Below are positions 12,475 through 37,090 of a stretch of DNA of 51,510 nucleotides, in pieces. Position 1 is the stretch's first letter, and each line of letters opens with the position of its first letter. Made by a program: the position numbers and the translations under genes. The notes beneath the pieces were generated by a model, which was not told where the DNA came from, made no database searches, and saw nothing but the letters and a program-made list of their open reading frames with translations. The DNA is from Metabacillus rhizolycopersici. Its GTDB lineage: Bacteria > Bacillota > Bacilli > Bacillales > Bacillaceae. The stretch spans positions 1 to 51,510 of the forward strand of contig NZ_JAIQUM010000040.1 of assembly GCF_020075705.1 (NCBI RefSeq), in the 5' to 3' direction.

Positions 12475-13902
12475 TTAACCTTCTAGATTTATAACTACCG
12501 TCACCGTTTCAATAAGCTCCTGTATCGCATAGGCTGGACCTTCTTTTCCATTTCCACTTTCTTTCACACCACCATATGGCATTTGATCTGTACGGAAACA
12601 ACATGTATCATTAATGATTACTCCACCGACTTCGAGTAAATATGGAATTTTAAAGGATAGATTCATATCTTTAGTATAGACCCCTGCTTGCAGTCCGTAT
12701 TTTGAATCATTAACAAGGTCAATTGCTTCTTCGATTGTATCATAAGCTGTTACCGATACAACTGGTGCAAACACTTCTTCGTCCACAACCTTCATGCCTT
12801 TTTTCACATTTACAAGAACAGTTGGATCAAAGATATTTCCGTTGCGCTTACCACCTGTTAAAACAATAGCACCTGCTTCTTTAGCCTCATTCACCCACTC
12901 TTCAATTCGAATGGCTTCTTTTTCACTAATCATTGGGCCGACATTTGTTTCAGGATCGAGTGGGTCGCCAACTTTAAGCTCCGCTACATGTTGCAGAAAA
13001 GCTTTCATAAACTGTTCTTCCACAGCTTTTTGTACAAAAATACGCTGAACAGAAATGCATACTTGTCCTGCATTCACAAACGCCATTTTCGCTAATTTGA
13101 CTGCTGCTTGTTCAACATCAGCATCACTATGAACAATCGTAGCTGAGTTAGACCCAAGCTCTAATGTTGCTTTACGTAGGCCGATTGTTTTTTGGATATG
13201 CTTACCAATACCAGGTGAACCTGTAAAAGTATAATGTGCAATACGCTCATCGTTTAATAGCTGCTCACCTACTGTACTTCCTCCGCCCGTCACACATTGT
13301 ACATAACCTTTTGGAACACCAGCTTCCTCTAAAATCTTGCATAATTTTATAGATGTTGTTGCCGTATCAGTAGCAGGCTTTATAATGACAGGATTACCTG
13401 CTGCAAGTGCAGGAGCTACTTTATGCACGACAAGATTTAACGGAAAATTAAACGGCGTAATTGCTGCTACAACACCGACTGGTTTTTTGATTGTGTATAA
13501 GAAACGCCCTTCAACATTGTAATTTGGAATGATTTCTCCCACTAGTTTTTTTGCTTCATCTGCTGCCATTAGAAATGTTGCAACCGAACGGCTTACTTCA
13601 ACTTTTGCATCGGTAATTGGCTTTCCACCTTCTTGAGCAATCGTGTCAGCAAAATCGTCAAGATTCTGTTTAAGCAGTTCTGCTACACGAAGTAAAACTT
13701 TGTGGCGTTGTTCCGGTGTAAATGGCACTTTTTTATGTGCGTGTACTGCTGCTTCCACTGCTTGATCAACAAGTTGATAACTTGCTTTAGGAATCTCAGC
13801 AAATACACCTCCTGTATATTTATTATAAATTTTATACGTATCGTCTGTTGAAACCCAGTCACCATTTATAAACAATTTCTGCTTTTCAATTGTTTGTACC
13901 AT
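12475..13902 (-). CDS. NAD(P)-dependent aldehyde dehydrogenase, downstream of transketolase
   Basis: A 475-residue aldehyde dehydrogenase with all catalytic residues: Asn152 in ITPFNFPLN, Glu248 in ATLELGS, and the nucleophile Cys282 in NAGQVCISVQRIFV. The GQVCISVQR context places it with the lactaldehyde/phosphonoacetaldehyde/sulfoacetaldehyde-type enzymes rather than with methylmalonate-semialdehyde dehydrogenase (IolA), which has a different cysteine motif. It lies 100 bases after the transketolase C subunit, same strand, so it probably oxidises the aldehyde that transketolase releases. From pathway logic I propose 3-hydroxy-4-oxobutanoate to malate; the substrate is not shown by the sequence. 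Confidence 0.85.
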   Translation of the reverse strand: MVQTIEKQKLFINGDWVSTDDTYKIYNKYTGGVFAEIPKASYQLVDQAVEAAVHAHKKVPFTPEQRHKVLLRVAELLKQNLDDFADTIAQEGGKPITDAKVEVSRSVATFLMAADEAKKLVGEIIPNYNVEGRFLYTIKKPVGVVAAITPFNFPLNLVVHKVAPALAAGNPVIIKPATDTATTSIKLCKILEEAGVPKGYVQCVTGGGSTVGEQLLNDERIAHYTFTGSPGIGKHIQKTIGLRKATLELGSNSATIVHSDADVEQAAVKLAKMAFVNAGQVCISVQRIFVQKAVEEQFMKAFLQHVAELKVGDPLDPETNVGPMISEKEAIRIEEWVNEAKEAGAIVLTGGKRNGNIFDPTVLVNVKKGMKVVDEEVFAPVVSVTAYDTIEEAIDLVNDSKYGLQAGVYTKDMNLSFKIPYLLEVGGVIINDTCCFRTDQMPYGGVKESGNGKEGPAYAIQELIETVTVVINLEG

Positions 13903-14002
13903 CTGATTCCCTCCATTAGCTTTGTAAAAATCGTTTCATTTTTAAGGGAAGTATCTGTCTAAAAAATACTCCCCTTTCCTTACCTTAGTGTGATAGATTC
14001 AA

Positions 14003-14956
14003 TTATTTCTTCTTTAAAGCCTCTCTTACTCTAGCTGCAATGTGGTCTGATGATATTTCATATTTTTGAAGAAGCGCCTCATTTGAACCAGATTCTGCGT
14101 TACGGTCTTTAACGCCTACACGAAGCATTGGCACTGGTTTTTCTTCAACAAGCACTTCTGCAACAGCACTTCCTAACCCGCCATAAATGCTATGCTCTTC
14201 AGAGGTTACAATGACACCTGTTTCTTCAGCCGCTTGAATAATCGCTTCCTTATCAAATGGTTTAATGGATGGCATATGCAGAACAGCAGCATTGATTCCT
14301 TCTTCTGCAAGTTTTTGGGCAGCTTCAAGAGAACGAACTGTTTGTGTACCTGTTGAAATGATTGTTACATCTTTTCCTTCCCTTACTTTTACTGCCTTAC
14401 CAAGTTCAAACTTATGATTTTCAGAAAAAACTGTTGGCAGTGGGTCACGAGCAAGACGAATATAAACAGGTCCATAATGATTATTCGCAAATTCCATCAT
14501 TTTCTTAGTTTCAACACCGTCAGCCGGTGCAAGCACAACCATGTTAGCAAGACTACGGAAAATTGCAATATCTTCTAGAGCTTGATGAGTCTTACCTGTT
14601 TTACCAGTTAAAAGTCCGCTGTAAGCTCCAATCATTTTAACATCAAGATTTGGTTGAGCGATTTGCACTTGAATTTGATCAATCGCACGTTTTGATAAAA
14701 ATGCTGCAAAGGTAGTAGCCCATGGCTGCAATCCAGTTGTTGCAAGTCCAGCTGCAACACTCATCATGTTTTGCTCAGCAATTCCCATTTGCAAAAATTT
14801 AGATTCATTTTTTTCTGCAATAACATCGACTTTCGTTGATGTTGCTAAATCACCATCTAACGCATAAACCCTTGGATCAACCTGAGATAATTTAAGTAAT
14901 GTTTCACCAAATACGTCACGCATTGCAACTTTTTCAGCAGTTTTTAAGTTTCCCAT
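14003..14956 (-). CDS. Transketolase, C-terminal subunit
   Basis: The pyrimidine-binding and C-terminal domains of a split transketolase, 317 residues. The catalytic glutamate that activates TPP is Glu61 in MGIAEQNMM. The donor-site loop reads GKTGKTHQ at 118-125, where housekeeping transketolases have GEDGPTHQ; the active-site His124 is kept but the acidic pair is replaced. Starts three bases after the N subunit stop, so both are co-translated. Together they should transfer a two-carbon ketol unit; the loop change and the location suggest a catabolic substrate rather than the pentose phosphate pathway. Confidence 0.9.
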   Translation of the reverse strand: MGNLKTAEKVAMRDVFGETLLKLSQVDPRVYALDGDLATSTKVDVIAEKNESKFLQMGIAEQNMMSVAAGLATTGLQPWATTFAAFLSKRAIDQIQVQIAQPNLDVKMIGAYSGLLTGKTGKTHQALEDIAIFRSLANMVVLAPADGVETKKMMEFANNHYGPVYIRLARDPLPTVFSENHKFELGKAVKVREGKDVTIISTGTQTVRSLEAAQKLAEEGINAAVLHMPSIKPFDKEAIIQAAEETGVIVTSEEHSIYGGLGSAVAEVLVEEKPVPMLRVGVKDRNAESGSNEALLQKYEISSDHIAARVREALKKK

Positions 14957-14959
14957 TTT

Positions 14960-15811
14960 TTAAACCCCCATTACAATTTCTTTAATTGCTGCTTCTAATT
15001 CTTCAGCATTCGGTACTTTCGCATGCCACCCATAAGAATTCTCCATAAAACTTACACCTTTTCCTTTTACTGTATTTGCAACAATAATCGTCGGCTTGCG
15101 TTTTACTTCCTTTGCATCATTTAAAGCTTGGATAATTTGTTGGAAATCATGGCCATCAGTACTAATAACATTCCAGCCAAATGCTTCCCAGCGTTTTTCA
15201 GGAGAAAATACAGGATTTTCTCGCTCTGTTACTGAGCCAGCCCATCCATATTGTTGAAGTTTGTTATAGTCCATAATCACAACTAAATTATCTAATTCAT
15301 ATTTTGCTGCTACATCTGCCGCTTCCCATACTTGACCTTCCTGTGATTCTCCATCACCAATCATGCAATACGTTCTGAAATTTTTCTCACGTAGTTTTCC
15401 ACCAAGCGCCACTCCTACAGCTGCTGAGATTCCTTGTCCTAATGAACCTGTTGACATATCAATTCCAGGCAAAATCTTCATATCCGGGTGACCTTGCAAG
15501 CGAGAGTCAATTTCATCAAATGTTTTTAATTCTTCAATTGGGAAGTAACCTCGTAGTGCAAGCACCGTATATAACGCAATACAAGAATGTCCTTTTGATA
15601 AGACAAAACGATCACGATCATCAGAACGTGGGTCTTCAGGATTAATATCCATTTCATTAAAATATAAGCTTACTAGCACATCAACTGCAGACAAAGGTCC
15701 TCCGATATGCCCTGCTCCTGCGTGGTGAATCGTTTCAAGAATAAGTTTTCTCGTTTCAATTGCTTTTTGCTTTAATATCGTCACCTTTTCTTGATCAAGT
15801 ATTGTACTCAT
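14960..15811 (-). CDS. Transketolase, N-terminal subunit
   Basis: The TPP-diphosphate-binding half of a split transketolase, 283 residues. The TPP/magnesium motif is GDGESQEG at 152-159 with the distal Asn183 in MDYNKLQQ. Other conserved pieces are HIGGPLSAVDVL near 35-46, LSKGHSCIALY near 71-81 and GSLGQG near 122-127. The start ATG has AAGGAGG upstream, and a LacI-type operator sits 42 bases before it. First gene of a transketolase-aldehyde dehydrogenase unit that probably also includes the lacI-type gene. Confidence 0.92.
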   Translation of the reverse strand: MSTILDQEKVTILKQKAIETRKLILETIHHAGAGHIGGPLSAVDVLVSLYFNEMDINPEDPRSDDRDRFVLSKGHSCIALYTVLALRGYFPIEELKTFDEIDSRLQGHPDMKILPGIDMSTGSLGQGISAAVGVALGGKLREKNFRTYCMIGDGESQEGQVWEAADVAAKYELDNLVVIMDYNKLQQYGWAGSVTERENPVFSPEKRWEAFGWNVISTDGHDFQQIIQALNDAKEVKRKPTIIVANTVKGKGVSFMENSYGWHAKVPNAEELEAAIKEIVMGV

Positions 15812-15852
15812 TTGGTTTCCTCCTTAAATATGTTAAGATTAATCACTTAAAT

Positions 15853-15868
15853 GGTGAAGCGCTTAACC
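15853..15868. promoter_or_regulatory. LacI-type operator upstream of transketolase
   Basis: GGTGAAGCGCTTAACC is a 16-base palindrome with one mismatched pair and the central AAGCGCTT shared with 17083, 17239, 33247 and 37318. It lies 42 bases upstream of the transketolase N start. It also resembles a CcpA cre site, so either or both proteins could act here. Confidence 0.7.
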
Positions 15869-16008
15869 TAAAGATATAAAATATTCATATTTTAGCTGAA
15901 TGTATCCAAGTTAGTCATTCTATTTCGGCATATCCTGCATTTCAATATTTATAGAGTGATTATACTTTTGTAAGAATAATCACTCATATTTTTTAAGTTT
16001 AGTATCTT

Positions 16009-17040
16009 TTAAAGAAGTGAATATTCTTCTCTTATCAATTTGATAGGTTTCCCAGTTTCAAAAGATTCTCTTGCTGCCTTTGCAATCAATTCAGCCTGAA
16101 GCCCATCATTTCCAATACAAACAAGTGGTTTATCATTCAATATTGAATCAATAAATGCGTGTGTTTCGATCATGTATGCATCTTTATAACGATCTAAAAA
16201 GAAATGCTTTAATTTGTCTTTATAAACTCCATCCTTTGTACTAATTTCTACATTTGTTGGATGTTCATTCTGAGCAGTTACACTTCCTTTGGATCCGAAT
16301 ACTTCAAGACGTTGATCATAACCATAAACTGCTTTTCGACTGTTATCAATCACACCAATTGCCCCGTTTTCGAACTTAAGGATTGTCATCGCTGTATCTA
16401 TATCACCTAGTTCCTCAAAAATAGGGTCAACTAAATTAACTCCCTGAACATATACTTCTTCAACTTCGCTACCTATTACATAACGAGCCATATCATAGTC
16501 ATGAATAGCCATATCGAAGAATAACCCTCCCGAATTTTTGATGTATTCTGCTGGAGGCGGTTCCGGGTCGCGTGAAGTAATTTTTAATATATGTGGTTCT
16601 CCTACTTTTCCTTCTTTCACAGTATCATGGACCTTTTTAAAGTTCGGATCGAAACGGCGGTTAAATCCAACTTGTAACTTAACCCCAGCTTCTTTTACGA
16701 CCTCCAGAGCCTCTTTCGTTTCTTCTGTTGAAAAACTGACCGGTTTTTCGCAGAAAATGTGTTTCCCGGCACGAGCAGCTTCTTTAATAATCGATCCATG
16801 TGTACTTGTCGGTGAACAAATGAAGATTGCATCAATTTCAGGATCATTTAAAATATCTTGATAATTTGTTGTAACGTTTTGAATTCCAATTTGCTCAGCC
16901 CATAATTTTGCATTTTCAATAAATAAATCTGAAATAGTCTTAATTTTAACATTTGGAATATACACGATATTTTCTGCATGCATTCGTCCAATTCTACCTG
17001 CTCCAATTATTCCAATCGTTAACTTTTCCAACACAGTCAC
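16009..17040 (-). CDS. iolG: Inositol 2-dehydrogenase, IolG-like (Gfo/Idh/MocA family)
   Basis: A 343-residue NAD-dependent dehydrogenase likely to oxidise myo-inositol to 2-keto-myo-inositol. The N-terminal Rossmann motif is GIIGAGRIGRMHAENI, the catalytic-lysine motif FCEKPVSF is near residue 95, the substrate-domain segment QVGFNRRFDP follows, and DMAIHDYDMARY holds the Asp/His pair. Start choice is uncertain: GTG at 17040, GTG at 17034 or TTG at 17031 are all in frame with only a weak AGGTAGGTG upstream. Divergent from iolE with two operators between. Closest in style to the IolG family among the five paralogues here. Confidence 0.82.
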   Translation of the reverse strand: MTVLEKLTIGIIGAGRIGRMHAENIVYIPNVKIKTISDLFIENAKLWAEQIGIQNVTTNYQDILNDPEIDAIFICSPTSTHGSIIKEAARAGKHIFCEKPVSFSTEETKEALEVVKEAGVKLQVGFNRRFDPNFKKVHDTVKEGKVGEPHILKITSRDPEPPPAEYIKNSGGLFFDMAIHDYDMARYVIGSEVEEVYVQGVNLVDPIFEELGDIDTAMTILKFENGAIGVIDNSRKAVYGYDQRLEVFGSKGSVTAQNEHPTNVEISTKDGVYKDKLKHFFLDRYKDAYMIETHAFIDSILNDKPLVCIGNDGLQAELIAKAARESFETGKPIKLIREEYSLL

Positions 17041-17082
17041 CTACCTAATTATTAGTTTACATTTGGAAAACGCCTTTCAAAG

Positions 17083-17097
17083 GGTAAGCGCTTTTCC
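17083..17097. promoter_or_regulatory. LacI-type operator 1 in the iolG-iolE divergent region
   Basis: GGTAAGCGCTTTTCC, 43 bases upstream of the iolG start, with the central AAGCGCTT at 17086-17093. Confidence 0.65.
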
Positions 17098-17238
17098 TTA
17101 TAAATTCATTATATTCTAAATATTACATTTTTTAAAGGGTTTTCTTTTTTATTTTTAAAGAATATACATGATTTATTTAGTATTTCTTTAACATTTTATT
17201 GCTTTATCTAAACTTCTCATTTAAAATTTTCATATAAA

Positions 17239-17254
17239 GGGTAAGCGCTTTAAT
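17239..17254. promoter_or_regulatory. LacI-type operator 2 in the iolG-iolE divergent region
   Basis: GGGTAAGCGCTTTAAT with the core AAGCGCTT at 17243-17250, about 70 bases upstream of iolE. It repeats AAAGGGTAAGCGCTTT from 17083 almost exactly; the two sites are about 157 bases apart, a spacing that could allow looping. Confidence 0.68.
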
Positions 17255-17324
17255 TATATTTTAATGATTTTTCTAATCTTATTAACTGCTTTTAATAAAG
17301 AAAAGGGATGAGGAGGAATTTTAA

Positions 17325-18251
17325 ATGGAAAACATTCCATTCAAATTAGGAATTCACCCAATCAATTGGGTAGGAGAAGATGTTTTAGAACACGGTGATC
17401 ATTATTCGTACCAACAGGTTATGTCGGAAATATCCTCTCTTGATTTTAAAGGAACAGAGGTAAGCAGAAAGTTTCCAAATGATGCAGAAGCGTTAAAAGA
17501 AGCATTATCTCAATACAATCTCCAGCTAACAACTCGATGGAAATCTGTCCTTTTTTCTGATCCGCAAAATCATAAAGAAGAATTGGATGCGTACCGGAAA
17601 CATGTTGAATTTTTAAAACCATTTGGCTGTAAAGTAGTAAGTACTGCAGAAATCGGTGGCTCCATCCTTAATCAAGACCCAAGACGCGGTCAAGATGAAA
17701 CTGAAGTTATTCGGTTAGACAATGATGGATGGAAATACATGGTTGAAGGATTGAATAAAGCAGGAGAAATTTGTCGCGAAAATGGCATGTACCTTGTCTA
17801 CCATCATCATGCAGGCACAGTAGTTGAACAACCTGAAGAAATTGATCGACTAATGGAAATGACTGATCCAAATTTAGTACATCTCCTATTCGACACAGGA
17901 CACGGTTATTATGGCGGAAATGATCCATTAACATTGTTAAAAAAATATTATGACCGAATTAAATATATTCATTTAAAAGATGTTCGACAAGAAGTATTAG
18001 ATAAGGCACGTGAAAATCAATATAGTATTAGAGAATGTATAAGCAAAGGAATGTTTACAGTACCTGGGGACGGTTGTTTGGATTTCAAACCAATTTTCAA
18101 GGAATTACTTGAACAAGAATATTCCGGATGGGCCTTAATTGAAGGAGAACAGGATCCTTTAGTATGTAATCCTTATGAATACGCAAAAAAATCGAAAAAA
18201 TTTATTGAGAACATTTTATTAGATCTTCAAACAAATAAATCAGTTATATAA
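17325..18251 (+). CDS. iolE: Inosose dehydratase, IolE-like
   Basis: A 308-residue TIM-barrel enzyme of the AP-endonuclease-2 superfamily, expected to dehydrate 2-keto-myo-inositol to 3D-(3,5/4)-trihydroxycyclohexane-1,2-dione. Family segments: KLGIHPINWVGED at the start, FKGTEVSRKFP, LVYHHHAGT near 158, HLLFDTGHGYYGG near 186, IKYIHLKD and KGMFTVPGDGCLDF. The start ATG has AGGAGG upstream. It is the only plus-strand gene in the island, divergent from iolG, and is followed by two terminator hairpins. Confidence 0.88.
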   Translation: MENIPFKLGIHPINWVGEDVLEHGDHYSYQQVMSEISSLDFKGTEVSRKFPNDAEALKEALSQYNLQLTTRWKSVLFSDPQNHKEELDAYRKHVEFLKPFGCKVVSTAEIGGSILNQDPRRGQDETEVIRLDNDGWKYMVEGLNKAGEICRENGMYLVYHHHAGTVVEQPEEIDRLMEMTDPNLVHLLFDTGHGYYGGNDPLTLLKKYYDRIKYIHLKDVRQEVLDKARENQYSIRECISKGMFTVPGDGCLDFKPIFKELLEQEYSGWALIEGEQDPLVCNPYEYAKKSKKFIENILLDLQTNKSVI

Positions 18252-18490: not shown

Positions 18491-19489
18491 TTAGTTACCA
18501 AGTAAGTTCTTTACTTCTTCCAATTTTTCAGCAGCATTTTCCTTCGTAACAACCATATCTTTACCACTGGTAATTCTTTTATCTATCGTACCACCATCGA
18601 TTACCTTTAATGCATTTTCGATGCCTTTGTACGTCATGTCATGTGGTTGTTGGGCAACAGTAGCTGTTAATTTGCCTTTGCTTATTGATTGGATCGCTTC
18701 ACTTGTACCGTCAATTCCGATAATTGGTATTGACATATTACGAGCAGATACAGCCTTTAAGGCCCCTAATGCCATTTCATCATTTGCTGCAAAAATGCCT
18801 TTAATATTAGAATTTGCTGTTAAAATATTCTCCACTACCGAAACTGCTTTAACCCGATCAAAATCCGCCGTTTGTTTAGCAGCAATCTTTAGTCCCGCTT
18901 CTTTCAACGCATCCTCTGCACCTCTTACTCGATCTTCACTTACTGGTGTACCTAATACGCCTTCAAGAATCGCAACCTCATCTCCTTTATTAAGATATGA
19001 TGCTAATTCTTGTCCTGCCTCTTCTCCAGATGTGTAATTATCAGTACCGATAAATGTTGTTTTTCCATCCCATTCCACATCACTATCTACAAGAAGAACA
19101 GGAATCCCTTTCGCTTTATATTTCTCAAGCACTGGAATCGCTGCTTCTGACTGGCTCGGCATGACAACTAATGCATCAAGATCTTTCGTCAATAAATCTT
19201 CGAGTATATTAATCTGCTCCATAACTTGTGTTTGACTTGAAGGAGCTAGAATCGTTCCCTCCACATCGAAATCTTCAAACCCCTGCTTCGCTCCACTTTC
19301 CATCAATTTAAAATATTCTGCTTCTAATGATTTTAAAACAACAGCTATTTTAGGTTTACCATCATTATCCTTATTGTCTTCACCACTACTTTCAGATGAA
19401 GTACCTGTACTTTTCTGACCACAACCCGTTAATAGTAATAAAATCAGAGTGGATAAGGTAAAAATTGACAAAAATCCTTTTCTTTTCAT
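18491..19489 (-). CDS. Sugar/inositol ABC transporter substrate-binding lipoprotein (SBP-1)
   Basis: A 332-residue Peripla_BP_4 (ribose-binding-protein-like) lipoprotein. The signal peptide ends in the lipobox LTGC with Cys23; a Ser/Asp-rich linker precedes the binding domain starting KIAVVLKSLEAEYFKL. Close paralogue of the proteins at 24483 and 21196 (shared pattern FIGTDNYT, DEVAILEGV, FAANDEMALGALKAV, IGIDGTSEAI). It is separated from the permease and ATPase genes by about 7 kb, so it probably supplies an alternative ligand to the same transporter. Ligand inferred as an inositol or derivative. Confidence 0.85.
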   Translation of the reverse strand: MKRKGFLSIFTLSTLILLLLTGCGQKSTGTSSESSGEDNKDNDGKPKIAVVLKSLEAEYFKLMESGAKQGFEDFDVEGTILAPSSQTQVMEQINILEDLLTKDLDALVVMPSQSEAAIPVLEKYKAKGIPVLLVDSDVEWDGKTTFIGTDNYTSGEEAGQELASYLNKGDEVAILEGVLGTPVSEDRVRGAEDALKEAGLKIAAKQTADFDRVKAVSVVENILTANSNIKGIFAANDEMALGALKAVSARNMSIPIIGIDGTSEAIQSISKGKLTATVAQQPHDMTYKGIENALKVIDGGTIDKRITSGKDMVVTKENAAEKLEEVKNLLGN

Positions 19490-19876: not shown

Positions 19877-21070
19877 TTATTTTAAATTAGTAACTAAACT
19901 ATTATTGGAAATTTCCGAAATATTGACCCATGATTTTTGCATTGCTGATTTTTCTATTGATTCAAGTACAATTTGGTTTCGTAAGCCATCTTCAAAATTT
20001 GGCTTCGGACTTATGCCATCTGCAATACCATTCATAAAATCAGACAATAAATTAATAAACGTATGCTCGTAACCAATAATGTGTGCTGGTGGCCAATAAG
20101 CACCTGCATAAGGGTGAATTTCTTCAGTACAGTTAATGGTTCTGAAACCTCTTAAACCTGGTTCATCATCAGCAAAATACACATCAAGGTTATTCAAGTT
20201 TTCTAAATCCCAACGAATCGACCCTTTATCTCCGTTAATTTCAAAGCGGTTACCATTAAGGTTTCCACCAGCAAATTTGGTTGCTTCAAATGTTCCAATT
20301 GCTCCATTTTCAAAGCGTGCAAGGATGACAGTGGCATCATCTACGGTTACTTCCCCCATCTTTGTCGCATCTACTTGTACATTAAGACCTTCATTCTGGA
20401 TTGGTCTCTGTTTGATGAAGGTTTCCATCACTCCTACAACCTCTTGAAATTCACCTACTAAAAATCTCGCTAAATCCAAACTATGTGAACCAATATCCCC
20501 AAGTGCACCAGAACCAGTTATCTCTTTTTTCGCGCGCCACGTAATTGGAAGATTCGGATCCATAGATGCATCTTGTAAATATGTTCCACGGATATGGCGT
20601 ATGTTTCCTAAACGACCTTGGTCGATAAGTTTTTTTGCATATTGAACCGCAGGGGCGAAACGATAGTTATGACAAATCATATGAATTACCCCATTTTTTT
20701 GTACAGCTTCATACATTCTTTTCGCTTGATTAACGTTCATAGAAAGTGGTTTTTCACAAATGATATGCTTTCCTGCTTCTGCTGCTGCAATCGCCATTTC
20801 AAAATGCGTACTATTTGGAGTTACGATATCAATTACATCGATATCATCACGTTGTATTAATTTACGCCAATCAGTTTCATATGAATCCCAACCCATTTTC
20901 TCTGCAGCTTTTTTAACTCCAGCTTCGTTCCGACCAGAAATTGCTTGCATAACTGGAACAAATTTTGTATCGAAGAAAAATGGAAGATTGCGATAAGCTA
21001 GACTATGCGCTTTCCCCATAAATTTATAGCCGATCATTCCTACTCTAACTTTCTTTTTCTCTATGCTCAT
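19877..21070 (-). CDS. Gfo/Idh/MocA oxidoreductase of the long (about 390 residue) class
   Basis: A 397-residue NAD(P)-dependent dehydrogenase. The Rossmann motif MIGYKFMGKAHSLAYR and the length resemble levoglucosan- and glycoside-dehydrogenase-like members. The catalytic-lysine motif CEKPLSM is near residue 105 and the substrate-domain GDIGSHSLDLARF near 190. It could oxidise a ring hydroxyl of an inositol, a methylated inositol or a glycoside. Start ATG with AGAAGGTGAG upstream. Lies between a binding-protein pseudogene and SBP-1. Exact substrate not deducible. Confidence 0.82.
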   Translation of the reverse strand: MSIEKKKVRVGMIGYKFMGKAHSLAYRNLPFFFDTKFVPVMQAISGRNEAGVKKAAEKMGWDSYETDWRKLIQRDDIDVIDIVTPNSTHFEMAIAAAEAGKHIICEKPLSMNVNQAKRMYEAVQKNGVIHMICHNYRFAPAVQYAKKLIDQGRLGNIRHIRGTYLQDASMDPNLPITWRAKKEITGSGALGDIGSHSLDLARFLVGEFQEVVGVMETFIKQRPIQNEGLNVQVDATKMGEVTVDDATVILARFENGAIGTFEATKFAGGNLNGNRFEINGDKGSIRWDLENLNNLDVYFADDEPGLRGFRTINCTEEIHPYAGAYWPPAHIIGYEHTFINLLSDFMNGIADGISPKPNFEDGLRNQIVLESIEKSAMQKSWVNISEISNNSLVTNLK

Positions 21071-21195: not shown

Positions 21196-21819
21196 TTACT
21201 CTCCTAACAATTTGGTTAATTCTTCTAATGTTTTATCAGCATTTTTTTCAGTAATAACGTCAAATCCACTATCTATTCTTTTATTAATAGATTCTCCTTT
21301 TATGACTTTTAAAACACTCTCAACACCTGTATACGTCATATCATATGGTTTTTGAGCAACAGTAGCTTCCATACCTTTAGTCTTAATTGATTTAACAGCT
21401 TCAGTAATTCCATCTATTCCGATAACTGGTATGTCTTTATTTTGTGCTTTTATTGCCCTTAGAGAACCGAGGGCCATTTCATCATTTATTGCAAATATTC
21501 CTTTTAGATCTGGATTGGCTGTTAATATATTCTCCATTACCGAAACCGCCATATTCCTATTTGAATCAGCAGCTCGTGATGCAGCAATTTTCATTCCTGC
21601 GTTTTTCAAACCTTTTTCCGCTCCACTAACACGTTGTTCACTAGTTGGAGTACCTGAAACACCTTCAAGAATTGTAACTTTATCACCAGGACTAAGCATA
21701 GAGGCTAAAAGTTCACCTGCCTTTTTACAAACTGTTACATTTATATCTTTAGAATAGTCCCCAGTTAATAATTTAATTATTGTCGATTTTCCTGCACTTT
21801 GTTCCTCTAGTAGCACATC
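21196..21819 (-). pseudogene. Chimeric pseudogene: ABC ATPase fragment fused to a substrate-binding protein
   Basis: The first 25 codons (21745-21819) read DVLLEEQSAGKSTIIKLLTG and on to DYSKD, matching Walker A and flank of the intact ATPase at 27573 (HVLLGENGAGKSTIIKILTG). From 21744 the frame continues as the C-terminal two-thirds of a Peripla_BP_4 protein (AGELLASMLSPGDKVTILEG to the end), close to SBP-1 and SBP-2. Signal peptide, N-terminal lobe and the rest of the ATPase are missing. The open frame upstream to 21978 is not protein-like. A deletion inside a duplicated ATPase-permease-SBP block explains it; the product should be inactive. Confidence 0.85.
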
Positions 21820-21901
21820 AACCGCGCATTTTAGGAAAAAATCAACTCTTAAAGCACTTAAAATAAGGCGCTTTCCTAGTTGGTCTATAAAAGTGTTTTG
21901 T

Positions 21902-22090
21902 TTTATGAAAATTCTAGAAGTAAAGGAAGTTCTGGAAGTGATAATCTGTAGATAGCATGATGTCATTTGTAATACCACTTAGAATTACATTACAATACGA
22001 TCACCCACGGAAAAAGCGGCCCGAACATCTGAGGAGTAAAAATGTGACCTAGAGGAAAAGTTCGAGCCCTATAGGGTTATTTTGATTAAT
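21902..22090. repeat. Diverged intergenic repeat, copy 1
   Basis: Aligns with 29356-29545 in two blocks: TCTGGAAGTGATAATCTGTA against TCTGGAGGTGGTTATTTGTA, and CATCTGAGGAGTAAAAATGT against CATCAGAGGACTTAAAAATG, in the same order and spacing. Both copies lie just upstream of ATPase-derived sequence, so they are probably the co-duplicated leader of the ABC operon. Confidence 0.65.
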
Positions 22091-27566: not shown

Positions 27567-27572
27567 AGTTCA

Positions 27573-29060
27573 TCATCCTCCCGTCGCAGCTTTCATAATA
27601 ACTTCTTGATTGGCTTCTTTCCGTTTTAAATCACCTGTTATTTTTCCCTCGTGCATAACCAGAATACGATCACACATGCCTAGAATTTCTGGAAGCTCAG
27701 AGGAAACGATAATGACACAAGCCCCTGCTTCAACCAGTTCATTGATAAGGTTATATACTTCAACCTTTGCACCAACATCAATACCACGGGTCGGCTCATC
27801 AAATATAAAAACCTTTGCTTGAGTGAATAACCATTTTGCAATGACTACCTTTTGTTGATTACCACCACTTAAATTTCGAGCTAAAAGATGAATATTATTG
27901 GGCCTGATTTTTAGATCATCTACATATTTATTTGCTACTTCTTTTTGTTTTTTATAACTGATAAGCCCATTTCCCTTGACCCTTTTCAATTTAGCAATTG
28001 TTTTATTGAAGATAAGAGTCTGATCTAGGAAAAGCCCTTCTCCTTTTCGATCTTCTGTAATGAATGCAATTCCAGCGTTAATAGCATCTTGAGGCTTCCG
28101 AATAACTTTCCGTTCACCAAAGATATAAACTTCTCCTGAATCAATCGAATCAGCGCCAAATATTCCTCTCATTAATTCAGATCTTCCTGCTCCAACTAAT
28201 CCAGATATACCAAGAATTTCTCCTTGATAAGCAGTAAAGTTTATCTCGTTTGGTGAGTCTTTTAGTTTAAGATTCTTTACCTTTAATCCTTCTTCCCCTC
28301 GCTTAAATACTTTTTTCGGATACTTTTGATCAAGGGAACGCCCTACCATTAATTCAATCATTTGATCTACAGAAGTATCCTTTACTGGTACGGTAGTAAT
28401 TTTAGTACCATCCCTTAAAACTGTGATTCGATCACCAATACGTTTAATTTCTTCTAATCTATGAGAAATATAGACAAACGTCATTCCTTGTTCTCGTAAC
28501 TTTTCAACAGTAGATAACAATTGTTCAACTTCCTGACCACTTAAACTAGCAGTTGGTTCATCCATAATGATTAATTTGGCATTTAACGAAAGTGCCTTTG
28601 CAATTTCGACTAATTGCTGCTGTCCTACACCCAAATTCCCTACTAGTTCATCAGGATTTACTTTTTGACCTAGTCTTTGCATTAATTTTTTCGCTTCTTC
28701 CTTCATATGCGCACGGTCCAGAAGAGAAAAACGATTGCCCCTTTTTTGTTCATGACCCAAAAAGATATTATCCGCGATCGACAGTTGAGGAATTAGGTTT
28801 AGTTCTTGATAAATCGTTGCGATGCCAATGTCGATAGCATCTTTAGGTTGGATGATATCTACTTTTTGTCCTTCCCACTTAATCTCGCCTGTATCTTTAG
28901 AATAGGCTCCGGTTAAAATTTTAATAATTGTAGATTTTCCTGCACCATTTTCCCCTAGTAGCACGTGGACTTCGCCTTTTTGAATTTCTAAACTGATATT
29001 ATGCAAGACTTTTACACTAGAAAAGGATTTACTAACATCTTTCATTTCCAGCAATACCAT
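27573..29060 (-). CDS. Sugar/inositol ABC transporter ATPase with two nucleotide-binding domains (RbsA-like)
   Basis: A 495-residue tandem ATPase. The first domain has Walker A GENGAGKS near residues 36-43, signature LGVGQQQ near 145 and Walker B LIIMDEPTASL near 163; the second has the degenerate GLVGAGRSE loop near 285, signature LSGGNQQK near 400 and VFIFDEPTRGID. This duplicated layout is typical of ribose/xylose/inositol importers. First gene of the operon ATPase-permease-SBP-3-SBP-2. A possible CcpA site lies about 100 bases upstream. A fragment of a second copy survives at 21745. Confidence 0.92.
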   Translation of the reverse strand: MVLLEMKDVSKSFSSVKVLHNISLEIQKGEVHVLLGENGAGKSTIIKILTGAYSKDTGEIKWEGQKVDIIQPKDAIDIGIATIYQELNLIPQLSIADNIFLGHEQKRGNRFSLLDRAHMKEEAKKLMQRLGQKVNPDELVGNLGVGQQQLVEIAKALSLNAKLIIMDEPTASLSGQEVEQLLSTVEKLREQGMTFVYISHRLEEIKRIGDRITVLRDGTKITTVPVKDTSVDQMIELMVGRSLDQKYPKKVFKRGEEGLKVKNLKLKDSPNEINFTAYQGEILGISGLVGAGRSELMRGIFGADSIDSGEVYIFGERKVIRKPQDAINAGIAFITEDRKGEGLFLDQTLIFNKTIAKLKRVKGNGLISYKKQKEVANKYVDDLKIRPNNIHLLARNLSGGNQQKVVIAKWLFTQAKVFIFDEPTRGIDVGAKVEVYNLINELVEAGACVIIVSSELPEILGMCDRILVMHEGKITGDLKRKEANQEVIMKAATGG

Positions 29061-29604: not shown

Positions 29605-30447
29605 TTAAGCCTGTGTTGCGACAGTAAAGTGTTTTCCTACAACTTCAGCTGTTTTCTCCCTTGAAACTTTAATAAATTTTTCTGGGTCCCATGTGTAATA
29701 TTCTTCTCTAAATAACTCAACAGATACTGCACCATGATAACCAATTTCCTTTAGTGTAGAGAGAATTAGATCTAGATTAATTGCACCATCTCCAGGAAAT
29801 AAACGATGTATATTCTCTTTTAAATATCCACGTGGAAAATCATCGGCATCATCAATGTGTATGACAAAAATTTTGTTTGGATCAAAATTTCTTAGGTCTT
29901 CAATATTTGAACCTAGTGAATGGAAGTGGAAAATATCTAACACCATTCCAACACTCTCTCGATTTACCTCATTAATAATATCTTCACATTGGTCGAATGT
30001 ATTAACACTACAGTCAGGATGACCGACAAATTCAAAAGCCAACCGCATATTTGCTTGTTCTGCATAATCTGCTAAATCATTTAACACACGAACTGACTCT
30101 TTCTTTATTTCCTCCATCGTATAATCACCAATATTAAACGAAGGAACGACCACAATGGTATCACAACCGATTTTATTGCCAACTTCACAAAGAAAGGCTA
30201 AATCTGCTTTTATTTGACTATAATCCTTTTCATTACAAAATGTCACAAATTCAAGTGAATTCAGCGCAAGAGGTTTTATGTGGTGACGTTGAAAGTATGT
30301 TGCAAGTTCATCGATAGAATGATTTTGCAAATAGTCTTTTATAAAGCTTAAACGTAATTCAATTGCATCATAACCGTGCTTTTCACAAAGCTGTAAATCA
30401 TTTTCTAGACTAGATTGCCTAAGCGTCTGATTGAATGATAATTTCAT
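29605..30447 (-). CDS. iolI: 2-keto-myo-inositol isomerase IolI
   Basis: A 280-residue TIM-barrel metalloenzyme interconverting 2-keto-myo-inositol and 1-keto-D-chiro-inositol, which lets the cell use D-chiro-inositol. It agrees along its length with B. subtilis IolI as I remember it: LQLCEKHGYDAIELR, HHIKPLALNSL, FEFVGHPDCSVNTF. The four expected metal ligands are Glu139, Asp171 (VLDIFHFH), His197 (VIHIDD) and Glu244 (VSVELFR). Start ATG with AAGGAG upstream; 78 bases downstream of the iolT-like gene. Confidence 0.92.
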   Translation of the reverse strand: MKLSFNQTLRQSSLENDLQLCEKHGYDAIELRLSFIKDYLQNHSIDELATYFQRHHIKPLALNSLEFVTFCNEKDYSQIKADLAFLCEVGNKIGCDTIVVVPSFNIGDYTMEEIKKESVRVLNDLADYAEQANMRLAFEFVGHPDCSVNTFDQCEDIINEVNRESVGMVLDIFHFHSLGSNIEDLRNFDPNKIFVIHIDDADDFPRGYLKENIHRLFPGDGAINLDLILSTLKEIGYHGAVSVELFREEYYTWDPEKFIKVSREKTAEVVGKHFTVATQA

Positions 30448-32184: not shown

Positions 32185-33213
32185 TTATCGTGTTAGCAAT
32201 TTATTATTTAACTCGACTGTCTCACCTGTTATAAAAGACTTTGTAGCAGCCGAAGCAATTTCTAACGCTGCCTTTCCATCGATTTCTGTACAAATAGGTT
32301 TTGTCCCTTTACGTAAGCTATCGATAAAGTGAACCATTTCCAGCAAATAAGCATCTTTAAATCGTGTTGGAAAATCAGAGATTAAATCATGTGTACTGCC
32401 TTTAGATGTTAATACTTTTACATCATGGTATCTCATTGAACCAATTTGAATCGATCCTTCTGTCCCAACTACTTCACCTCTGATGTCATATGCATAAGGA
32501 GCAATTCGCATCGTTTCAATATCTCCTGCAGCACCTGAATCAAAAGTGAAATATGTCATCGCTTGATCAACATCATTATATTTTTCCATAAACTTATTTG
32601 AATTCATTAAAATATTACCTGTTGATGTAACAGAGGCTATTTCTTGCCCCATTAAATAACGGGCAATATCATAGTCATGTATAGCTATATCTAAAAAGAT
32701 TCCGCCACTATGCTTGATGAACTCTTCTGGTGGGACGTTTCCATCTCGGCTTACACCTTTAAAATAAATCGGTGTGCCAATATCACCAGCTGCAATTCTC
32801 TTTTTCGCTTCTGCATATGCTGGGTCAAATCGTCTCATAAATCCAACTTGCAATGAAACATTCGTTTCACCAATGACTTTGATCACATCATCCGCTTCAT
32901 CTAAAGTATGTGTTAACGGCTTCTCTACAAATATATGTTTACCATGCCTTGCAGCACGTGAAATCATATCTGCATGAGTACTTGTTGGTGTGACGATCAC
33001 AACAGCATCAATACTATCATCTTCGAATATATCATTAGGATTTTGAGACCAGCTTCCAACACCTAATTCTCTTGCTACTTGCTCCGCTCTTCCTTCAAGA
33101 GGATCTACTACACTAACTAATTGAGCCCCTTTGACTTTAGAGACAAGGTTTTCTGCGTGCCAATATCCTAATCTTCCTAATCCCAACACAGCTGTACGAA
33201 TTGTTTCTTTCAT
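32185..33213 (-). CDS. iolX: scyllo-Inositol 2-dehydrogenase-like, IolX type (Gfo/Idh/MocA)
   Basis: A 342-residue NAD-dependent dehydrogenase. The start LGLGRLGYWHAENLV, the catalytic-lysine motif VEKPLTHTLDEAD, LQVGFMRRFDPAYAEAKKRI and HSGGIFLDIAIHDYDIARY match IolX of B. subtilis, which oxidises scyllo-inositol to 2-keto-myo-inositol. A close paralogue is at 36086. The ATG at 33213 has AAAGGA upstream at good spacing; another ATG three codons earlier is less likely. Its own operator at 33247 suggests an internal promoter in addition to read-through from iolB. Confidence 0.82.
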   Translation of the reverse strand: MKETIRTAVLGLGRLGYWHAENLVSKVKGAQLVSVVDPLEGRAEQVARELGVGSWSQNPNDIFEDDSIDAVVIVTPTSTHADMISRAARHGKHIFVEKPLTHTLDEADDVIKVIGETNVSLQVGFMRRFDPAYAEAKKRIAAGDIGTPIYFKGVSRDGNVPPEEFIKHSGGIFLDIAIHDYDIARYLMGQEIASVTSTGNILMNSNKFMEKYNDVDQAMTYFTFDSGAAGDIETMRIAPYAYDIRGEVVGTEGSIQIGSMRYHDVKVLTSKGSTHDLISDFPTRFKDAYLLEMVHFIDSLRKGTKPICTEIDGKAALEIASAATKSFITGETVELNNKLLTR

Positions 33214-33246
33214 ATTATTCATCCTTTCATTTCAGTAAAGTTTTAA

Positions 33247-33260
33247 GGTAAGCGCTTCAT
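33247..33260. promoter_or_regulatory. LacI-type operator upstream of the iolX-like gene
   Basis: GGTAAGCGCTTCAT with core AAGCGCTT at 33250-33257, 34 bases before the start codon, in the gap after iolB. Confidence 0.65.
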
Positions 33261-33325
33261 CTTGATTCAGAAGTAAATCATAACTATAGGCTCCTACAGC
33301 TATGATTTTACTCTTTGTGTAATCA

Positions 33326-34147
33326 TTACTTCATTAGCCATTCATGATCTTTATCATTTGTGAATTTCCACGTTCTCACAGGACCTGCCATAACATTCAT
33401 ATAATATAAATCATAGCCAGGAGGTGCTGAAACTGGGTGATATCCTTTTGGAACAAGTACAACTTGACTATCATTGACCACAATCGTTTCATTCAAAGAC
33501 TTATCATCCGTATAAACACGTTGTAAAGAAAAGCCACCTTCAACCGGATTCATTTTGTGATAATATGTTTCTTCTAAGTATCCTTCTTGTGGTAAATTTT
33601 CCTCATCATGTTTATGAGGCGGGTAGCTTGACCAGTTTCCTGCTGGTGTAAACACCTCGATAACAAATAAGCTATCTGCTGCATCTGTTTCAGATAAAAT
33701 CGTTTGAACTTCACGTTGCATACTACCTGATCCGCGTGTTGCGACATCTACATCTTCTGGAGCAATAAGTCTCGCCTCATATGTTCCTTTTCCTGGTGCT
33801 TTACAAACAGCAATTTCAAGTTCTGTTAATGCCTCAACTGTAAATTGATCATCATTTGGGATATATACAGAATAAGCCGGAGTTTTTTCAAATACACTCA
33901 TTCTTTTTCCTATATTGTCCCAAGATTTATGTTTTGTCTTAACGTTCGCCCGGCCAGATACTAATACGATAACCGTCTCCTGATCCAACGTTTCTTTTTC
34001 TACAGTTTGACCTGCTTTTAGCTTATGGACATCAAATCCAATATATTTCCAACCAGCCGATTCAGGTGTTATTGATAACACTTTACCATCCTTATCACCT
34101 TTTTGTTCTGGGGTTACAAGTAGATTACTAGCAAGTAGATTACTCAT
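33326..34147 (-). CDS. iolB: 5-deoxy-glucuronate isomerase IolB
   Basis: A 273-residue KduI/IolB-family cupin that converts 5-deoxy-D-glucuronate to 5-dehydro-2-deoxy-D-gluconate. Family features: paired cupin domains, the metal-binding SSYPPHKHDEEN with its His pair and Glu near residue 175, LEETYYHKMNP, and VVLVPKGYHPVSAPPGYDLY near the C-terminus. 35 bases after iolD on the same strand. It makes the substrate that, in my hypothesis, the transketolase uses. Start ATG with GAAAGGAG upstream. Confidence 0.93.
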   Translation of the reverse strand: MSNLLASNLLVTPEQKGDKDGKVLSITPESAGWKYIGFDVHKLKAGQTVEKETLDQETVIVLVSGRANVKTKHKSWDNIGKRMSVFEKTPAYSVYIPNDDQFTVEALTELEIAVCKAPGKGTYEARLIAPEDVDVATRGSGSMQREVQTILSETDAADSLFVIEVFTPAGNWSSYPPHKHDEENLPQEGYLEETYYHKMNPVEGGFSLQRVYTDDKSLNETIVVNDSQVVLVPKGYHPVSAPPGYDLYYMNVMAGPVRTWKFTNDKDHEWLMK

Positions 34148-34182
34148 GTCCTATTCTCCTTTCAGACTTATCAATTTATTTT

Positions 34183-36048
34183 TTAATATTTTCTAGCTGT
34201 AGCTCTTCTTTTTTCAATCTCAACATAGGCTTTTTGAACTTTTTCGCTAGGGGATACTTCAGCTACACCTAGGCGCCACCATGACTCATATCCTGTTGTA
34301 CATGTACCAGGAAGTACTTTAATATCAATTAATGTTGAAACTGTTTCCTTCTTAGCTTGTTCTAATGCCGCTCTCAATTCTTCTACTGTATGAACGGTAT
34401 AACCTTTCGCCCCAAGACTTCGTGCGTTTGCAGCAAAATCGATAGGCATATAATCTCCTGTTAAACGGTTATCTGCTTCTGAGCGATATCGGAATTCATT
34501 TCCAAACCCGTCACTACCTTGTCCTCTTTGCAAATTGTGGATACATTGGAAGCCATGATTATCAAATAAAAGGATATTAATTTTTTTATTTTCTTGCAGA
34601 CTAGTAACTAACTCTGAATGAAGCATTAAATAACTACCATCACCGACAATGGTATATACTTCTTGGTTTTCTTCAGCCATCTTAATACCTAAAGCACCTG
34701 CTACTTCATAACCCATACACGAGAATCCATATTCCATATGATATGTCTTAGGGTGAGAGCTTCTCCATAATCGATGCAAGTCACCTGGTAAGCTTCCAGC
34801 TGCAGCGATAATAATATCTTTTTCATCAATCGTTTTATTGATTTCGCCTAACACTTGAGTTTGAGAAAGTCCTTCTTCTCTTTGATCTGCAAAATGTTTA
34901 TCAACTTCTGCATCCCAATTCTCTTTCAATGTTTGAAGTTGCCCTTCTTCATAAGATGTTTGATAGCCTTGTTTTTTCAATTCCTCTGTTAAAATTTCAA
35001 GACCTACTTTTGCATCTGAAACAAATGATTGCGCATCCAGTTTCAGTGCATCAAAAGAACTAACATTAATACCTAAAAATTCTACATCTGGATTTTGGAA
35101 TGCTGTTTTTGATGATGTGGAGAAATCAGTTAATCTAGTACCTACTCCAATGACTAAATCAGCCTCTTTTGCTAAGATGTTTGATGCTAATGATCCGGTC
35201 GATCCAATACTGCCCATGTTTAAAGTATGATCCCAAGCAAGAGCACTTTTTCCTGCCTGTGTTTCACCAACAGGAATTTGGAAGGTTTCGGCAAACGCTT
35301 TCAATCCCTCTGTTGCTAATGCATAATGAACGCCACCACCTGCGATAATAACTGGTTTTTTCTTTCTAGAAATCAACTCTACAGCACGTTCAATCGCTGA
35401 TGGTGCAGGATTTCTCCTCTCAATATGATGAATTCTCTTTTTAAAGAATTCAACCGGATAATCATAAGCTTCACTTTGAACATCTTGAGGTAAAGCTAGT
35501 GTAACTGCACCAGTATCCACTGGATCTGTTAATACACGCATTGCATTTAGTGCTGCAGTCATTAGCTGTTCAGGTCTTTGGATACGGTCCCAATATTTAC
35601 TTACAGGCTTAAATGCGTCACTTGCAGCCATCGTGTAATCAGCAGGATCTTCAATTTGTTGTAAAACTGGATCTGGTTGACGAGTTGCAAAGTTATCCCC
35701 TGGTAATAACAATACTGGAATACGATTCACTGTTGCAGTTCCAGCAGCAGCAACCATATTTAATGCTCCTGGTCCTATCGATGTCGTACAAGCGAAAATT
35801 TCAAGGCGATTTTTTTGTTTTGCATATGCGGTAGCAGAATGAACCATCCCTTGTTCGTTTTTCCCTTGAATATAGGTAAGACCTTCACTTTGTGTTTCTA
35901 AAGCTTCTCCCATTCCTGTCACATTGCCATGACCAAATATTCCAAATATACCTTTAACAAATTTTCTTTCCTCTCCATCCAGTTCAATGTACTGTTTATC
36001 TAAAAACTTCAATAGCGCTTGCGCCATTGTTAAACGAATCGTTTCCAT
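34183..36048 (-). CDS. iolD: 3D-(3,5/4)-trihydroxycyclohexane-1,2-dione hydrolase IolD
   Basis: A 621-residue TPP-dependent enzyme that opens the inositol-derived ring to 5-deoxy-D-glucuronate. It has the three-domain acetolactate-synthase-like fold: an N-terminal domain with [15 protein letters not shown] and the TPP-activating glutamate region, a central domain, and the C-terminal TPP motif [20 protein letters not shown] ending at [11 protein letters not shown]. Length agrees with the family (about 640). Start ATG with GGAGGGAAAG upstream. Between the iolX-like gene at 36086 and iolB. Confidence 0.95.
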
Positions 36049-36085
36049 TTACTTTCCCTCCTATTACCTTCATGATGTGGTTTAA

Positions 36086-37090
36086 CTAATTTAACACTAC
36101 AGTTTCTTTTGTTTTAAAAGATTTTGTAGCTGCTTCAGCAATTTCCAATGCAATCTTTCCATCAATCTCTGAAACTTGTGGTCTTTCATTTTTTTGTAAA
36201 CACTCTATAAAGTGAGAAAGTTCATTTAAAAAAGATTCTTTGAACTTAATAGGGAAATTCGGAACATTATCGTAAGCGCTTCCCTTAGAGGTAAGGATTT
36301 TTATATCATGATGTTGAAGAGAACCAATTTGAATCGTTCCTTCCGTTCCAATCACTTCCCCTCTAATGTCATAACCAAATGATGAATTCCTACTACCTTC
36401 AATATCGCATGATGCACCATTTTTAAATGTCATAAAAGTCATTGATTGATCTACATCTTGATATTTGTTCATAAACGGGTGGATAAGCACATCCCCAAAC
36501 GCTTTAACAGATTTCACTTCGTCTCCCATCAAGAAACGAGCAATATCATATTCATGGATACATAAGTCTAAGAAAATTCCACCGCTTGTTTTAATATAAT
36601 CTTCCGGTGGTGAACCTGGGTCTCTACTGAGTCCTTTGAAATAAATAGGTTGCCCTATATCACCATTCTCAATTCGTCTTTTTGCTTCTGCGTATGCTGG
36701 ATCAAATCTTCTCATAAATCCAACTTGACAAAATACGTTATTCTTATTGATTTCTTGAATAACCATTTCTGCTTCCTCTAATGTTTCTGTTAAAGGTTTA
36801 TCTACGAATATATGTTTTTTACTTCTTGCTGCTTGAATAATTAACTCAGCATGCGTTTTTGTAGGTGTAACAATAACCACAGCGTCAATTGAAGGATCCT
36901 CAAATATTTCTTGGGGATTATTCGTCCACTTTTTTACACCTAATTCACGAGCTACCTTTTCAGCACTCTCTTTTCTTGAAGACGCGATTGTAACTAATTC
37001 AGCACCTTTGATGCGTGTTGCCAAGTTCTCTGCATGCCAATAACCTAATCTACCAACGCCAATAACTGCACATCTAATTTTTTCCTTCAT
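36086..37090 (-). CDS. iolX: scyllo-Inositol 2-dehydrogenase-like, IolX type, second copy
   Basis: A 334-residue paralogue of the gene at 32185, with the same IolX-type landmarks (IGVGRLGYWHAENLA, CQVGFMRRFDPAYAEAKRRI, SGGIFLDLCIHEYDIARF). Two deviations: the usual EKP catalytic motif reads VDKPLTETLEEA, with Asp for Glu beside the catalytic lysine, and HDYD reads HEYD. It may prefer another inositol isomer. First gene of the iolX-iolD-iolB-iolX unit, with operators at 37117 and 37318. An AAGCGCTT palindrome also lies inside the gene at 36274-36281. Confidence 0.82.
   Translation of the reverse strand: MKEKIRCAVIGVGRLGYWHAENLATRIKGAELVTIASSRKESAEKVARELGVKKWTNNPQEIFEDPSIDAVVIVTPTKTHAELIIQAARSKKHIFVDKPLTETLEEAEMVIQEINKNNVFCQVGFMRRFDPAYAEAKRRIENGDIGQPIYFKGLSRDPGSPPEDYIKTSGGIFLDLCIHEYDIARFLMGDEVKSVKAFGDVLIHPFMNKYQDVDQSMTFMTFKNGASCDIEGSRNSSFGYDIRGEVIGTEGTIQIGSLQHHDIKILTSKGSAYDNVPNFPIKFKESFLNELSHFIECLQKNERPQVSEIDGKIALEIAEAATKSFKTKETVVLN
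36271..36284. promoter_or_regulatory. Operator-like palindrome inside the iolX-like gene
   Basis: CGTAAGCGCTTCCC carries the full eight-base core of the island operators, within coding DNA about 810 bases after the start. It could be an internal repressor or CcpA site, as found in Bacillus catabolic operons, or chance. Confidence 0.35.

Follow-up and report, generated by a model that had tools for sequence, protein, structure and literature searches.

How is inositol broken down by a gene cluster that encodes the upper half of the classic pathway and a transketolase (TK), and none of the enzymes of the usual lower half? The question is raised by contig NZ_JAIQUM010000040.1 of Metabacillus rhizolycopersici (assembly GCF_020075705.1), whose whole analysed stretch of 51,510 nucleotides is called the window here, and in which an island of inositol genes (12475-37090) also carries a two-subunit TK and an aldehyde dehydrogenase (ALDH). 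Inositol is a common carbon source in soil and gut; in the canonical iol pathway of Bacillus subtilis it is degraded by IolG, IolE, IolD, IolB, IolC, IolJ and IolA, in this order, with IolC-IolJ-IolA regarded as the standard lower half. The island is read here, with a probability of roughly 0.8, as a TK-type lower half of inositol catabolism, which would lead through 5-dehydro-2-deoxy-D-gluconate (DKG) to xylulose-5-phosphate and D-malate, and from the latter to pyruvate. The evidence was obtained by computation and consists of gene content, operon structure, co-occurrence, genomes with TK and inositol genes but no IolC over its cut-off, and an active-site signature; every substrate and product after IolB is inferred.

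Gene content, proposed route and active site

Genes were located by matches to NCBIfam profiles and by the coordinates of open reading frames (ORFs). All those listed for the island lie on the minus strand except IolE; the last line lies outside it.

12475-13902, minus strand: ALDH, proposed (R)-3-hydroxy-4-oxobutanoate (D-malate semialdehyde) dehydrogenase, by NCBIfam and homologues
14003-14956, minus strand: split TK, C-subunit (TKC, Pyr and C domains), by TK models and alignment to 6yaj and human TK; signature Y112/T120/K122
14960-15811, minus strand: split TK, N-subunit (TKN, binding thiamine diphosphate, ThDP), by TK models; signature D99 and R104
16009-17040, minus strand: IolG, inositol 2-dehydrogenase (TIGR04380, 475 bits, cut-off 355)
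17325-18251, plus strand: IolE, inosose dehydratase (TIGR04379, 380 bits, cut-off 290)
32185-33222, minus strand: IolX-like inositol dehydrogenase 1 (IolG model TIGR04380, 354.1 bits, about 1 bit below the cut-off of 355)
33326-34147, minus strand: IolB, 5-deoxyglucuronate isomerase (TIGR04378, 356 bits, cut-off 205)
34183-36048, minus strand: IolD, trihydroxycyclohexanedione hydrolase (TIGR04377, 974 bits, cut-off 715)
36086-37090, minus strand: IolX-like inositol dehydrogenase 2 (IolG model TIGR04380, 366 bits, cut-off 355)
9560-10822, minus strand: malic enzyme, a possible malate-consuming step (uncertain), 1.65 kb beyond the end of the ALDH gene and across a LacI gene

The IolG, IolE, IolD, IolB and two IolX-like genes named by the original prediction were found at these positions, but its IolI (29605-30447) gave only weak matches as a TIM-barrel-like protein (at most 60 bits, all below cut-off). 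The predicted two-subunit TK and ALDH were located as well, and the claim that IolC, IolJ and IolA are missing from the window was borne out by tblastn with references from relatives: neither IolC nor IolJ gave a match at 1e-5, and the IolA references matched the ALDH alone, at 28-29% identity.

In the proposed route, inositol would be converted to DKG by IolG (together with IolX), IolE, IolD and IolB as in the textbook. The dedicated TK would then transfer the C6-C5 unit of DKG to an aldehyde, of which glyceraldehyde-3-phosphate is the most likely; the products would be xylulose-5-phosphate and (R)-3-hydroxy-4-oxobutanoate, and the latter would be oxidised to D-malate by the ALDH. D-malate would be converted to pyruvate and CO2 by a decarboxylating D-malate dehydrogenase of the tartrate dehydrogenase/DmlA family, which several species encode in the cluster; in the window's species malic enzyme may take its place. 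Xylulose-5-phosphate would be returned to triose phosphates via pentose-phosphate enzymes, with a pyrophosphate (PPi)-type phosphofructokinase (PFK), Fba, Rpe and RpiB encoded in related clusters. The predicted stereochemistry was derived anew from Fischer projections and agreed: C3/C4 of DKG have the D-threo configuration of TK donors, and removal of the ketol leaves CHO-CHOH-CH2-COO- in R configuration, so that its oxidation would give D-malate.

The separate N (ThDP) and C (Pyr and C) subunits match TK models. The TKC of the window is 99% identical to that of Metabacillus litoralis, and no TKC match was found in plasmid records at 1e-90. By alignment to 6yaj and human TK, the catalytic Glu and the phosphate-site Arg/Ser are retained (E61, R13, R167 and S40, whose roles are in part our assumption), and in the subfamily His416 and Asp424 of human TK are replaced by Tyr and Thr, respectively, with a Lys two residues after the latter. 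A TK class was defined by Y112 and K122, so that only the remaining residues are independent of the classing; four loci were left unclassified, and one (L180; loci and genomes carry our L and G numbers) was without the start of TKN. The class comprised 26 of the 86 classified loci, with 60 others, and position 99 of TKN was Asp in 25 of its 25 readable rows and Arg in all 60 of the others. The form FD...SRLQGHP is shared by six Deinococcota TKs. Positions 99 and 120 are those which we take to be Arg91 and Asp469 of Escherichia coli TK. In the D469T variant of the latter, the salt bridge to R91 is lost, which leaves R91 free to bind a carboxylate substrate (PMC5073344). The paired change in the N and C subunits may likewise serve a carboxylate donor. 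It is considered probable, as one joint reading, that this split TK family is specialised through a swapped N/C charge pair for 5-keto sugar acids, including an undescribed inositol route in at least two phyla, and that the TK route is the sole lower half in some species and stands beside the classical one in others.

The top NCBIfam models of the ALDH were lactaldehyde dehydrogenase (510 bits, cut-off 650) and succinate-semialdehyde dehydrogenase (371 bits, cut-off 646), neither of which was reached; the two models resemble the two halves of its putative substrate. ALDH homologues of 64-87% lie near TK in L002, L003, L007, G149, G395 and G469.

Occurrence of the transketolase with inositol genes

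Relatives were obtained by scanning genome contigs with a TKC alignment, and the neighbours of the resulting 80 loci were annotated. Inositol genes adjoined TKC at L001 (with L200), L002, L003, L007, L011 and L060, the last of which had iol fragments and IolC within the same stretch and was excluded from the loci that join TK to inositol genes (TK-iol loci). The order was ALDH-IolX-IolD-(IolE)-TKN-TKC-IolB in Paenibacillus validus and P. alginolyticus (L002 and L003, respectively), with TK between IolD/IolE and IolB, and IolB-IolE-IolX...IolG-TKN-TKC-ALDH in Aeribacillus composti (L007). In G149 the genes run in one direction as PFK-IolX-IolD-IolB-IolE-IolX-ABC transporter-binding proteins-ADH (alcohol dehydrogenase)-IolG-TKN-TKC-ALDH-DmlA-type gene-MFS; Siminovitchia thermophila (G001) resembles it in gene order as far as TKC, and its MMSDH (IolA) lies elsewhere in the genome.

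Co-occurrence was counted in the 397 genomes of one Bacillota order. IolD was present in 73 of them, at 82 places, and all 82 stretches were fetched. IolC lay within the fetched stretch at 75 of the 82 (73 of 80 plus 2 of 2; ORFs of at least 130 amino acids and IolC identity of at least 40% in the 80-place set). The seven places without IolC were three TK-linked loci (G007, G149 and G395) and four with IolC elsewhere in the genome, in one of which (G279) it lay just outside the fetched stretch. TKC was found at 1e-110 in seven of the 397 genomes, three of them with IolD, and each of these three has an IolD locus without IolC, against 4 of the 70 others (Fisher p = 5.6e-4).

An IolD tree was built from all 87 of 87 rows, with ORFs longer than 660 amino acids trimmed to the last 640. 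Eight TK-linked rows (the window and seven others) and four IolC-linked rows formed a 12-row set with full support, and the TK state of the eight required two changes on the tree, as compared with a mean of 7.8 after shuffling (0 of 500 as low). The IolD proteins of G192, G368, G335 and G329, which are the four IolC-linked rows of this set, are 67-73% identical to that of the window with IolC adjoining, and no such TK was found in these genomes at 1e-60.

A separate group was found in the Deinococcota order of the Thermaceae assembly L011, in which 111 genomes were searched, 21 matched at 1e-70 and 10 were read (G011 and nine others). The TK subfamily was present in six (G011, G753, G758, G765, G766 and G767), and neither the TK motif pattern nor iol genes were found in the other four (G846, G845, G824 and G823). 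The order was IolD-IolE-DmlA type-TKN-TKC-IolG-IolB at five of the six loci; in G767, whose contig breaks off within TKN, TKN-TKC-IolG-IolB remain. None of the six genomes had IolC over the cut-off (best 162 versus 300 bits). At L253, L255 and L256, the TK-iol operons are followed by an ABC transporter and a putative glycerophosphodiester phosphodiesterase gene (presumably so by resemblance), perhaps for glycerophosphoinositol.

The expected co-occurrence in relatives was found both in several Bacillota genomes and in Deinococcota, where TK takes the place of IolC/IolJ/IolA within IolD-IolE-IolB operons. IolB without IolC over the cut-off of 300 bits was found in eight TK-iol genomes (G149, G001, G011, G753, G758, G765, G766 and G767), the best IolC score of G001 being 188 bits. 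G149 gave neither an IolC match at 1e-40 nor an IolA match at 1e-100, IolJ not having been searched genome-wide in any relative; MMSDH was likewise absent from G011 at 1e-100 and present in five other genomes searched.

For the step after D-malate, the tartrate dehydrogenase model TIGR02089 (curated cut-off 470.4 bits) was used, a family which we take to include the D-malate dehydrogenase DmlA. Genes over the cut-off were found in G149 (499.5 bits) and G469 (488 bits), in both directly after the ALDH gene, and in L011 (502.1 bits). Such a gene was present somewhere in seven of the eight TK-iol genomes searched (not in G007) and within the cluster in three (G149, G469 and G011); that of G395, 76% like that of G149, lies elsewhere in the genome beside a different ALDH. 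The presence of this gene type in some TK-iol operons fits the predicted D-malate product.

Behind TK-ALDH, G395 encodes a PPi-type PFK (NF010675, 453 bits, cut-off 273), malic enzyme, RpiB, class II Fba and Rpe, and PPi-PFK homologues occur in the clusters of G007, G149 and G001. PFK, RpiB, Fba and Rpe of G395 would be suited to return pentose phosphate to trioses. The original prediction of a kinase-free, ATP-saving route is accordingly kept for the DKG step itself but is only partly right, because xylulose-5-phosphate must be recycled and a phosphoryl donor is still spent, several clusters having a PFK of the PPi-dependent subfamily.

Predicted operator-like sites, none with an assigned strand, were located between the genes as follows (by likeness to TAAGCGCTTA with at most one mismatch).

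15856-15865: palindrome before TKN (TK-ALDH genes)
17079-17251: divergent IolG/IolE promoter region with two sites (17085 and 17242)
33249: site before IolX1
37319-37328: palindrome TAAGCGCTTA upstream of IolX2-IolD-IolB-IolX1

An equivalent site precedes TKN in G395, G007, G149 and G001, and regulation by a common operator at TK-iol loci is plausible. The motif density was 27 sites per 37 intergenic kb (0.73/kb) in nine TK-iol records, some of which overlap.

Counter-evidence and alternative explanations

Several observations weigh against a TK-type lower half. The TK subfamily also occurs in clusters without IolD/IolB (four of the seven matches at 1e-110 and five of eight in another set, in whose five genomes IolD was not searched genome-wide), which is what chiefly calls for caution. 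A DmlA-type gene is absent from the window, and from G007 at 1e-95; in G001, G002 and G003 the TIGR02089 copy is found elsewhere in the genome and is only 52-54% like that of G149, and such a gene is also carried by two of four IolC-type control genomes without TK. No ALDH was found near TK in G001, and among the six Deinococcota loci it lies downstream only in G011 and G758, with none in the stretches read for the others. G753 has a PfkB-like gene about 5.6 kb beyond IolB (153 bits, cut-off 300), and the placement of the Thermaceae row L011 in the IolD tree is unsure because of its very long branch. In G469 (L194, Paenibacillales), TKN-TKC-ALDH-DmlA type directly adjoins IolA, IolC, IolD and IolJ, and the tree places its IolD among the ordinary ones. 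An additional IolC lies elsewhere in the genomes of G002, G003, G007 and G395, and the window's species probably keeps IolC or a normal iol operon as well, since G395 is its closest relative. The predicted kinase-free replacement is upheld at the level of the operon, but IolC is retained by several TK-iol genomes (those four and G469); in some TK species the replacement holds per operon and not per genome. The operator motif, finally, is nearly as dense in 77 other IolD records (115 sites per 237 kb, 0.48/kb), which makes it weak evidence of co-regulation: sites of one type do stand before both TK/ALDH and iol genes as predicted, but they are not specific to TK-iol loci, and the operator as proof of a single regulon is weakened.

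The clusters without inositol genes bear on the explanation that the TK-ALDH-dehydrogenase module serves a different 5-keto sugar acid, produced by dehydrogenases of the island or imported (for example 5-ketogluconate, to tartrate), and is a mere neighbour of the iol genes. The TK subfamily stands with ALDH, a TIGR02089-type gene and two Zn-ADHs in L004, L006, G188 and G353; among the TK-ALDH clusters of this kind, a DmlA type is found in G188 and G353, malic enzyme in G534, G565 and G463, and neither in G567 and G608. Zn-ADHs are usual and a TRAP transporter is frequent (L185, L187, L195, L196 and L199), and in G567 IolC and IolA lie as a pair at a distance of about 6 kb. Moreover, 5-ketogluconate is accepted as a donor by a mutant E. 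coli TK, and its cleavage by TK to tartaric semialdehyde is proposed in plants (PMC11066805). These clusters may process other 5-keto sugar acids, and they suggest where the enzyme originated. As an account of the inositol island, however, this explanation is considered unlikely: in the eight genomes with IolB and without over-threshold IolC it would leave DKG without its usual exit, and the TK genes lie inside the operon, flanked by IolE and IolG/IolB in Deinococcota and by IolD/IolE and IolB in L002 and L003. At L188 and L189 (G319 and G344), the same TK class was observed beside a putative PTS permease gene, presumably of the ascorbate type.

That IolC and IolJ are replaced by a PFK-like kinase of the clusters, phosphorylating DKG at its ketose C1-OH, and by an Fba-type aldolase that cuts it, with TK left for something else, is regarded as very improbable. 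The PPi-PFK-like genes of the G395, G007, G149 and G001 clusters and Fba of G395 are in its favour, but with the same references neither PFK nor Fba was matched in the window or at the six Deinococcota loci, and TK, ALDH and the DmlA-type gene would be left without explanation. PFK and/or Fba also stand beside TK in non-iol clusters (the second TK of G001, L004 and G188), which points to recycling of xylulose-5-phosphate. Possible, if doubtful, is a variant of the TK-type route itself, in which the C4 acid of the window's species passes through malic enzyme, perhaps as L-malate, instead of D-malate dehydrogenase. The gene lies close to the ALDH, and homologues occur in the clusters of G395 and L003 and in the non-iol TK clusters of G534, G565 and G463; against this, the stereochemistry would yield D-malate, and G395 has its TIGR02089 gene elsewhere. 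G395 also shows an unusual expansion, with nine malic-enzyme matches at 1e-60 or below (two further rows are pieces of one copy), four of which are 84-86% identical to that of the window. With four near-equal copies the linkage to TK is weak and the neighbourhood may be due to chance, so that malic enzyme as a firm last step is weakened. The TK-type lower half ending in D-malate is the reading retained.

Neighbouring genes and comparison with known systems

Further features of the window are as follows.

11273-12313, minus strand: regulator of the LacI family, located downstream of TK-ALDH, with LacI-type homologues close to the TK-iol loci of L002, L003, L007, L180 and L092
23262-24275, minus strand: Zn alcohol dehydrogenase, IolM-like (NF041097, 214 bits, cut-off 450), with homologues of about 65% in the G149 and G001 clusters
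26559-29060, minus strand: sugar ABC permease and ATPase of the island, by translations, with homologues of 72-97% in the G149, G001 and G395 clusters

Related sugar-binding protein genes were observed at 18491-19489, 24483-25472 and 25490-26479. The ORF at 21196-21978 (260 amino acids) has an ABC-ATPase-like stretch fused to a binding-protein end and resembles a partly deleted duplicate, and the dehydrogenase at 19877-21070 has levoglucosan dehydrogenase as its top model (439 bits, cut-off 650).

With the canonical B. subtilis pathway, the island shares the upper half from inositol to DKG, its IolG, IolE, IolD and IolB being over the NCBIfam cut-offs. Where the former has a kinase, a class II aldolase and a semialdehyde dehydrogenase of the CoA-acylating type, the island has TK and a non-IolA ALDH instead, to which a D-malate/tartrate-type dehydrogenase is added in several TK-iol species. 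If the reading is true, inositol would yield malate/pyruvate and pentose phosphate where the standard route yields dihydroxyacetone phosphate and malonate semialdehyde/acetyl-CoA. The cost in energy would change as well, and genome-based prediction of inositol use would be affected, as species without IolC could wrongly be called non-users. In Thermotoga maritima, inositol is degraded by IolG, IolM, IolN and IolO. The window has an IolM-like ADH and the TIM-barrel-like protein with a weak IolO match, but both are far below cut-off (214 of 450 and 59 of 300 bits, respectively), and IolE, IolD and IolB are present instead. The best solved relative of the TK is the split TK of Carboxydothermus (6yaj and 6yak), which has the same two-subunit architecture and, unlike the island TK, retains H...GEDG in the C subunit and R in the N subunit.

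In the sulfo-TK pathway of sulfoquinovose degradation (PMC9594981), an acidic-end ketose is cut by a dedicated TK (SqwGH), and the ketol can be passed to glyceraldehyde-3-phosphate to give xylulose-5-phosphate. The logic of this first cut would be the same here, applied to an inositol intermediate as a different donor; SqwGH is likened by description and not by sequence, and its C4 product is isomerised and cut again, which the 2-deoxy product presumably could not be. For 5-ketogluconate, the analogue of DKG with a 2-hydroxy group, the same kind of cleavage and a subsequent semialdehyde dehydrogenase step are given as a route to tartrate (PMC11066805), which is putative in plants and not tied to inositol. 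E. coli TK has been mutated for this kind of keto sugar acid cleavage according to the same source, and the present loci point to a natural enzyme family that would cut keto sugar acids to D-malate or tartaric semialdehyde. No paper on a TK-type route was found in the literature on inositol/iol and transketolase, of which few subscription papers and no preprints were covered. TK-type inositol breakdown in certain soil-dwelling and heat-loving bacteria would appear to be an undescribed second lower half of the classic pathway, with a TK cleavage logic that is known from the sulfo-TK pathway.

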